Assembly (NCBI GenBank): GCA_029003555.1 | Contig: JAQYCE010000034.1 | Span: 1 to 34,169, forward strand | Direction of reading: 5' to 3' | Source: Bacillota bacterium | GTDB lineage: Bacteria; Bacillota; Clostridia; Tissierellales; Peptoniphilaceae | Length of the DNA: 34,169 nucleotides | Shown: in pieces, positions 24,035-26,635 of the stretch | Layout of the letters: each line of letters begins with the position of its first letter | Position numbering within the stretch: the first letter of the stretch is position 1 | The notes under the pieces: generated by a model | What the model saw: only the letters and a program-made list of their open reading frames with translations | Told to the model about the DNA's origin: nothing | The model's database searches: none | Made by a program: the position numbers and the translations under genes

Positions 24035-25393
24035 ATGTTCGAGAAATACTTCAAGCTCTCTGACCATAAGGTAACGGTCCGGAGCGAAATCATGGCGGGC
24101 ATTACGACCTTCGTGACCATGGCCTATATCCTGGCGGTCAATCCCCAGATTCTAGGCGATGCGGGCATGCCGGCCGGCGGCGTATTGATTGCCACCGCCA
24201 TTGCATCCGCCATTGGCTGCTTCTGCATGGCCATCTTCGCCAACCTGCCCTTTGCTCTTGCTCCGGGCATGGGGCTGAATGCCTTCTTTGCCTACACGGT
24301 GGTCTTGAAGATGGGCTATCCCTACCAGATCGCCCTCTTTGCCGTATTCCTGGAAGGGCTGATCTTTATTGTCCTGTCCCTGACCAATGTCCGGGAAGCC
24401 ATTTTTAATGCCATCCCCCTGTCTTTGAAAAACGCCATCTCCTGCGGAATCGGCCTTTTCATCGCCTTTATCGGCCTCCAGTCCTCTAAGTTGGTTGAGG
24501 CCAGCCCGGCCACCCTGGTTTCCTTCTCCGGCCTGAATAAAAACTTCAACACCGCAGGTATCTCTGCCCTCCTCTGCCTGATCGGGATCATCATCATTGT
24601 CGTCCTGACCCACAAGAAGGTCAAAGGGGCCATCCTGATCGGCATCCTTGCCTCCTGGGTCCTGGGCATGATCGCCCAGGCCGCCGGCCTCTATGTTCCC
24701 AATATTGAAGAAGGCTTCTTCTCCCTCTATCCCTCCTGGTCCGCCCCCCACTTTGAGGAGTTCTCCGGCCTGGTTGGACAAGCCTTCAAGATCGATTTTT
24801 CAGCTATTTCTCCCTTGGAGCTCTTCTCCATCACCTTTGCCTTCCTCTTCGTCGATATCTTTGATACCGTCGGAACCCTGGCCGGCGTAGCGGCTAAGGC
24901 AGACATGCTCGATAGCCAAGGCCGCCTCCCCCAGGCCCGCGGTGCCCTTTTAGCTGACGCCGTCGCCACCTCCACCGGAGCTGTCCTGGGGACTTCCACC
25001 GTCACCACCTTCGTCGAATCCTCGGCCGGAGTGGAAGCCGGCGGACGGACCGGACTCACGGCAGTCACCACCGGTGTCCTCTTCGCCCTGGCCATGATCC
25101 TCTCCCCGATTTTCATCGCCATCCCGGGCTTTGCGACCGCATCCGCCCTGATCTATGTCGGCTTCTCCATGTTCACCGCCGTCGTCAAGATCGACCTGTC
25201 TGACCTGACCGAGGCCTTCCCCGCTTACTTGGCCATCCTCTCCATGCCCCTCTTCTACTCCATTGCTGAGGGCATCTCCATGGGCGTAGTCTCTTTCGTC
25301 ATCCTCAAGCTTCTGACCGGGAAGAAAAAAGACATCTCCCCCCTCATGGCCGTCCTCGCCTGCATCTTCATTCTCCGCTATATCTTTATGTAG
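24035..25393 (+). CDS. NCS2 family nucleobase permease (guanine/hypoxanthine-type)
   Basis: ITTFVTMAYILAVNPQIL, FANLPFALAPGMGLNAFFAYTVV, TFVESSAGVEAGGRTGLTAVTTGVLF. Confidence 0.95.
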   Translation: MFEKYFKLSDHKVTVRSEIMAGITTFVTMAYILAVNPQILGDAGMPAGGVLIATAIASAIGCFCMAIFANLPFALAPGMGLNAFFAYTVVLKMGYPYQIALFAVFLEGLIFIVLSLTNVREAIFNAIPLSLKNAISCGIGLFIAFIGLQSSKLVEASPATLVSFSGLNKNFNTAGISALLCLIGIIIIVVLTHKKVKGAILIGILASWVLGMIAQAAGLYVPNIEEGFFSLYPSWSAPHFEEFSGLVGQAFKIDFSAISPLELFSITFAFLFVDIFDTVGTLAGVAAKADMLDSQGRLPQARGALLADAVATSTGAVLGTSTVTTFVESSAGVEAGGRTGLTAVTTGVLFALAMILSPIFIAIPGFATASALIYVGFSMFTAVVKIDLSDLTEAFPAYLAILSMPLFYSIAEGISMGVVSFVILKLLTGKKKDISPLMAVLACIFILRYIFM

Positions 25394-25418: not shown

Positions 25419-25465
25419 AAAAAAACTATGGTAGAGCAACTTCGTCGCTCTACCATAGTTTTTTT
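25419..25465. terminator. Bidirectional intrinsic terminator after the NCS2 permease gene
   Basis: Perfect 19-bp inverted repeat aaaaaaactatggtagagc (25419-25437) / gctctaccatagttttttt (25447-25465). Confidence 0.92.
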
Positions 25466-25498: not shown

Positions 25499-25575
25499 CC
25501 CTGATAATTTCGAGATTCTACGAATTGTCAGGGCTCGGGCCCCTGATAATCCTGAGATTATCTGAATTGTCAGGG
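25499..25575. repeat. Two tandem 35-bp imperfect inverted-repeat units (42-bp period)
   Basis: CCCTGATAATTTCGAGATTCTACGAATTGTCAGGG (25499-25533) and CCCTGATAATCCTGAGATTATCTGAATTGTCAGGG (25541-25575); 29/35 identical; identical 10-nt 5' and 12-nt 3' ends that pair. Confidence 0.9.
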
Positions 25576-25720: not shown

Positions 25721-26635
25721 ATGTCAAAAGACTATTTAAGCGGTGTGATCGATATCGGGTCCAATACCATCCGGCTCAATTTGTACCGACCGACAAAAAA
25801 TGCTGAGGGCTTTAAGACAGTGGTCTCCAAAAAGACTTTTGCCGGCTTGGCTTCCTACCTCATCGATGGGAAGATGACGGATTCCGGGATCCAGAAGGCT
25901 TCCAAGACCCTGAAGAAATTCAAGCGGATCCTGGATGACTTGGAAATTGATGAATGCTATGCCTTTGCCACGGCTGCCATCCGGAATGCTTCCAATGCTC
26001 AGGAGATCTTGAAAACTATTGAAAAAGAATCCGGTATCCGGGTGGAATTGGTCTCCGGACAGGATGAGGGCTACTTCTCCTATTTGGGCCTCTGCCTTGA
26101 CCTGGGTCCCTTCGAAGAGGGTTATGTCATCGACATCGGGGGCGGATCAACGGAGGTCACCCTGGTCAGAAAAGGGGAGTACATCTCCACATCATCCATC
26201 CCCGAAGGCTCCCTCTCCCTCCACCGGGCCTTCGTCAAAGACCTGATTCCCACAGTAGAAGAATACCGCTTAATCAAATCCTATGTCGTCGAGCTCCTTG
26301 GGCGCTACCCCCTCCCCTTGGCCGCTTCCAACCAGGCATTCGGCGTGGGCGGGACTATTCGTGCGGTCGGGAACCTGGCCCAGGAAATCAACCAAAAGGA
26401 AGGCAATGGGCAAACCACTTTGGCGGAGATTGAAGACCTCTCCCTTCGCTTCTTAACCCACGACTCCTCTTCCCTGAAGACGGTCTTAAAAGTCACTCCT
26501 GAACGTCTCCACACCCAGCTTCCCGGAATGATCATCCTCCAGGAGGTCATGAAGGCCCTCTCCTGTTTTGACCTCACCATCAGCCAGAACGGGGTGCGTG
26601 AGGGCTACTTATTCAACAAGCAAAAGGAGGATTAA
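25721..26635 (+). CDS. ppx: Exopolyphosphatase / Ppx-GppA family phosphatase
   Basis: GVIDIGSNTIRLNLY, YVIDIGGGSTEVTLV, QAFGVGGTIRAVG; start moved from 25682 to ATG 25721 with GGGGGG upstream. Confidence 0.93.
   Translation: MSKDYLSGVIDIGSNTIRLNLYRPTKNAEGFKTVVSKKTFAGLASYLIDGKMTDSGIQKASKTLKKFKRILDDLEIDECYAFATAAIRNASNAQEILKTIEKESGIRVELVSGQDEGYFSYLGLCLDLGPFEEGYVIDIGGGSTEVTLVRKGEYISTSSIPEGSLSLHRAFVKDLIPTVEEYRLIKSYVVELLGRYPLPLAASNQAFGVGGTIRAVGNLAQEINQKEGNGQTTLAEIEDLSLRFLTHDSSSLKTVLKVTPERLHTQLPGMIILQEVMKALSCFDLTISQNGVREGYLFNKQKED

Follow-up and report, generated by a model that had tools for sequence, protein, structure and literature searches.

What are the two short palindromes that stand in tandem between a permease gene and a ppx-type gene in the 34,169-nucleotide stretch of DNA analyzed here (the window), and what might recognize them? 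A preliminary description, made from sequence alone, had recognized a tandem pair of 35-bp units with a 42-bp period, identical at 29 of 35 positions (83%) and placed past a complete terminator and before ppx. It had proposed a REP/MITE-like family, a protein operator, or a structured RNA. The pair and its setting stand as described (Table 1), including the terminator stem and T run, which an automated scan misses because the loop is 9 nt long, and the inverted repeat behind the alternative fold proposed for unit 2. The pattern CCCTGATAAT-N13-GAATTGTCAGGG matches both units exactly and gave no matches in dinucleotide shuffles. Downstream, the mechanical open reading frame of ppx runs from 25682, and the likely ATG, as read from the sequence, follows AAGGGGGG; the encoded protein is 97% and 89% identical to those of Kallipyga massiliensis and Kallipyga gabonensis, respectively.

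Table 1. Palindromic units of the window and neighboring features.
Feature	Position	Strand	Description
Palindromic unit 1	25499..25533	+	35 bp; A-type, CCCTGA...TCAGGG; exact match to the family pattern
Spacer CTCGGGC	25534..25540	.	7 bp; short-spacer class (6–8 bp)
Palindromic unit 2	25541..25575	+	35 bp; A-type; contains GATAATC-CTGA-GATTATC; exact match to the family pattern
Intrinsic terminator of the upstream permease gene	about 25425..25465	+	13-bp stem, 9-nt loop, T run, read from sequence; context, outside the array
Xanthine/uracil-type permease gene	24035..25393	+	PF00860, E 2.8e-39; context
ppx/gppA-type phosphatase gene	25721..26635	+	PF02541, E 4.6e-50; context

The window pair belongs to a large family of strictly 35-bp palindromic units. 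Defined by perfect ends as CCCTG-N25-CAGGG and counted against the reversed pattern as a control, the family has 56 copies in the window's own genome (taken as a Kallipyga, 81% complete, 79 contigs) and 91 and 144 in two Kallipyga congeners, with 2–4 control matches in each. Three genomes of a second genus, taken as Murdochiella from the records and sequences that matched, hold 155, 281, and 240, which gives a range of 56–281 perfect-ended units per array-bearing genome; the control ranges from 0 to 4 over all genomes counted. A mismatch-tolerant pattern found at least 20 matches in the window's genome, counting both strands, versus none in its control. The preliminary description's suggestion of a dispersed family, constant at the ends of its units and variable in the core, was sound, and the family is extragenic. 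Its distribution is narrow. A scan of an 84,980-species genome collection for pairs of adjacent units returned matches only in Kallipyga and Murdochiella records. A search of 130 genomes of the taxonomic family gave matches only in all three of Kallipyga and three of five of the second genus, plus one isolated pair in a third genus. The other two Murdochiella genomes (G122 and G124) are nearly array-free, with 1 and 0 units, so that this genus offers a natural comparison for finding the protein involved. No viral contig matched the array pattern, and a link to phages was rejected on that count. We found no description of these repeats in the open-access literature, nor any mention of them in the text of the K. 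massiliensis genome paper, and the family is apparently previously undescribed.

The geometry of the family is strict. CCCTG and CAGGG are separated by 25 bases in 196 distinct cases from Kallipyga loci and 161 from Murdochiella loci, with off-length gaps (24 or 26) in 6–7 and 4–6 cases, respectively; all of these loci had been selected for carrying arrays, and the counts therefore characterize the family, not genomes sampled at random. Units recur with a period of 41–45 bp, about four helical turns: 42 (55 pairs), 45 (40), and 41 (12) for A-type units in Kallipyga, 43 (30 pairs) for G-type units, and 42 (49 pairs) and 44 (20) in Murdochiella. A third end type, CCCCTC..GAGGGG, keeps the 35 bp at a period of 45 in two species. 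Array size runs from 2 to 9 units in Kallipyga, and Murdochiella arrays reach 26. In Kallipyga the most frequent form is a six-unit array whose spacers are 7(8)-10-6/7-10(9)-7(8), a pattern present in 25 arrays, in which a short class (6–8 bp) alternates with a long class (9–10 bp) and the longer spacers are T-rich on one strand. The GC content of A-type units is 79% at the ends but drops to 28% inside; that of the window is 55%. Arrays lie between main genes, the A-type cases in 11 convergent, 18 co-directional, and 5 divergent settings as judged from mechanical open reading frames, and several, the window pair included, sit after a terminator. Third-type units (CCCCTCC..GGAGGGG) with a 10-bp spacer can be read at L039 5822–5991 and L108 2535–2749, where the length is kept despite the different ends.

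Comparison of the three Kallipyga species shows how arrays change. K. massiliensis carries seven units next to ppx, one of them 36 bp, preceded by a different terminator stem; K. gabonensis has two that match units 2–3 of the K. massiliensis array; and the window's two resemble the last units of that array, with its unit 1 resembling, by eye, the fifth unit of canonical six-unit Kallipyga arrays. Because the three species hold different subsets of units here, arrays shrink by whole units, and the window pair is, to judge by these resemblances, a shortened copy of a longer array. Within orthologous arrays, differences between species amount to 4.6% in the outer five bases, 13.3% in the next five, 21.0% in the core, and 23.7% in the spacers. 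The local-identity filter behind these figures used no end columns, and a first estimate was similar, but orthologue pairs were chosen where both species keep the array, which may favor conserved cases. By this measure the unit ends are constrained in place between species. Paralogous whole arrays within one genome reach 86% identity, versus 85–87% for orthologues, and units that occupy equivalent places in different arrays are more alike than they are when unit order is shuffled (0.597 versus 0.543, sd 0.002); both observations indicate that six-unit blocks are copied as wholes. Gain and loss are also seen. Six more loci were selected for having no known orthologous array; wherever the site could be located in the sister species, it held no A-type array or had G-type units instead. 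At one orthologous gap (L100, L101, and L075), K. gabonensis carries an A-type array and K. massiliensis nine G-type units, and the window's species has no units at all; array type is, on this three-way comparison, turning over fast at that site.

We prefer, as something close to an even call, the reading in which the window pair and its family are inverted half-sites bound by a dimeric protein, copied as blocks and with an architectural or insulating role. In each unit, a degenerate AT-rich core would separate two inverted copies of a half-site (CCCTGAY...) by a constant distance, and a putative dimeric DNA-binding protein would occupy successive units cooperatively, turning the array into a nucleoprotein patch that organizes or insulates the DNA between transcription units. 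New arrays arise by copying of the whole six-unit block, arrays decay through whole-unit loss, and the half-sites would be retained by selection. Among the three options of the preliminary description, the operator-like one is best supported because of the strict length, the constrained ends, the regular helical spacing, and the independently varying half-sites. We infer that the ligand would most economically be a dimeric protein that binds cooperatively; as for what these candidate sites do, architecture or insulation between transcription units is our best guess. Weighing against binding by a protein are the large internal differences among units, more than is usual for one operator, and the gain, loss, and replacement of whole arrays, which also fits selfish DNA. 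A wider proposal, which we advance with more doubt than belief, is that Kallipyga and Murdochiella carry an undescribed system of chromosome architecture or insulation, with putative dimeric-protein sites of fixed 35-bp length, canonical six-unit patches, at least three half-sites (CCCTGA, CCCTGG, and CCCCTC), and block spread without a RAYT.

The main rival to a protein-site reading is selfish, nonautonomous palindromic DNA of REP- or MITE-like kind, in which an enzyme of a mobile element recognizes the 35-bp units and copies units or arrays that bring the host no gain and persist in intergenic dead space. We regard this explanation as the less probable of the two but a substantial possibility. 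The copying of whole arrays between loci, the presence or absence of arrays and the replacement of A-type by G-type at orthologous sites, and the REP-like size and extragenic placement (PMC3733652) all speak for it. However, PF01797 (Y1_Tnp, RAYT-type) is absent from all six array-bearing genomes in a search whose controls were positive, and a RAYT origin was rejected on this ground; one match each was found in two array-free relatives, G124 among them. An IS110-type mobilizer (PF02371) was rejected as well, being present in only one of the six. The sole clean array-minus site (L003 versus L103) shows no target-site duplication, and a deletion would explain it equally well; neutral copies should not hold their ends 4–5 times more conserved than their cores between orthologues. 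The selfish reading is thus weakened by end constraint and by the absence of a RAYT and supported by block copying and by presence and absence.

REP elements are short palindromes of 20–40 bp that are extragenic, present in many copies, and divided into several subfamilies per genome (PMC3733652), and the 35-bp family shares each of these features. GTAG REP families are tied to a RAYT transposase and have been described from other phyla, with Firmicutes not mentioned (PMC3733652), whereas the present family, from a Firmicutes lineage, has strict length, a degenerate core, no RAYT, and no GTAG/CGTC tag: within 8 bp of either end, CGTC occurs in 2 of 209 units and GTAG in none. BIMEs are strings of palindromic units in alternating orientation with two spacer classes (PMC2817692). 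The 35-bp arrays are like them in their regular spacing, two spacer classes, and other repeat motifs alongside, but their units point the same way (192 one way and 7 the other; adjacent pairs the same in 158 and opposite in 7), and most commonly they form a block of exactly six units, each position having its own sequence. The arrays are REP/BIME-like extragenic palindromic DNA that departs from those systems in three defining features, namely the tag, the RAYT, and alternating orientation. The REP/MITE-like option of the preliminary description holds as far as a dispersed palindromic family goes and fails for membership in the known GTAG/CGTC REP group. With MITEs the arrays share a short noncoding block at several loci and, in each unit, inverted-repeat ends; no fixed border and no parent transposase was found, and the one clean array-minus site, possibly a deletion, showed no target-site duplication. 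Regular, constant-length, palindromic-ended repeats between genes also recall CRISPR arrays, a candidate rejected on unit identity and spacer length: mean internal identity of the units is 0.53–0.60 where near identity would be expected, and the spacers are 6–10 bp in fixed classes where unique ones about as long as the repeats would be expected. With abundant arrays in a Gram-positive lineage, a stricter geometry, no RAYT, and measurably constrained ends, the old question of whether such arrays of extragenic palindromes serve the host or only themselves becomes directly testable here.

A structured RNA, in which transcribed arrays fold into strings of stem-loops, is in our judgment improbable. 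Arrays do have much more stable folds than shuffled sequences have (mean z about −7), and both window units fold well too (minimum free energies of −15.1 and −13.9 kcal/mol for units 1 and 2, z −4.6 and −3.4). The gain in folding energy is equal on both strands, however, there is no Rfam match, and the window pair sits past a terminator. The preliminary description had asked for a covariance analysis, and covariation was examined inside units, over spacers of both classes, and for every pair of positions. Arm pairing was not above column expectation, within units or between neighbors, beyond the invariant 5-bp ends. Only the pair of positions 15 and 21 showed notable Watson-Crick covariation, in Kallipyga A-type units, and this was absent in Murdochiella and G-type units. 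An RNA hairpin family was rejected, since compensatory base changes were not found and the one pair that stood out did not recur. Positions 6 and 30 change together (A-T versus G-C), but between subfamilies, a linkage that a symmetric protein site would explain as well as a stem would. The 10-bp stem with a T.G wobble noted earlier is real in both window copies, but across the family, conservation of pairs is limited to the outer 5 bp (CCCTG/CAGGG). At positions 7/29 the combinations are T/G (79), T/A (73), C/A (34), and C/G (19); each half-site independently allows T or C (Y) there, which produces the apparent wobble of the window units. The 35-bp units look, on these sequence comparisons, more like repeated protein-docking DNA sites than like RNA hairpins or the usual products of REP transposases. 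That the pair is a chance local duplication without wider meaning, as the preliminary description had allowed for a locus lacking other copies and conservation in relatives, is hardly credible: the window holds only two units, but the 56, 91, and 144 perfect-ended units of the three Kallipyga genomes, against 2–4 for the reversed control, and the units at the ppx locus in both congeners rule it out.

Several features lie beside or within the arrays. Many arrays, though not every one, have a left motif, GGCTCCTGCCTCGGGCTCTGAACTCATGAGTT, next to them, and comparison of array flanks found no fixed element border. To the left of arrays at L004, L009, L024, L039, and L041 there is a MITE-like inverted repeat of 100-odd bp (CCCTTGACGGCAGGACAAAATTCGC ... 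GTCAAGGG), followed by the motif GGTGGCTCCTGCCTCGGGCTCTGAACTC. At L110 (K. gabonensis C2:502500–507000), an IS3-type element with two open reading frames, so identified by reading, lies at about 1456–2855 inside the core of unit 5, in an array whose counterpart in the window's genome is intact; this 1.4-kb insert was considered as a mobilizer and rejected, its frames reading like those of an ordinary IS3-type element within a unit core. On the minus strand of 25499–25575, each window unit carries a weak promoter-like match (CTGACA-N16-AATTAT/GATTAT, 9/12), probably a by-product of the family consensus. In Murdochiella, 27–28-bp palindromes (GCGCCG...CGGCGC) occur near the ends of large arrays at L027, L031, L034, L035, and L038, and at L033 5431–5780, palindromes of 39 bp (GGACAC...GTGTCC) form a series of their own with a spacing of 62 bp.
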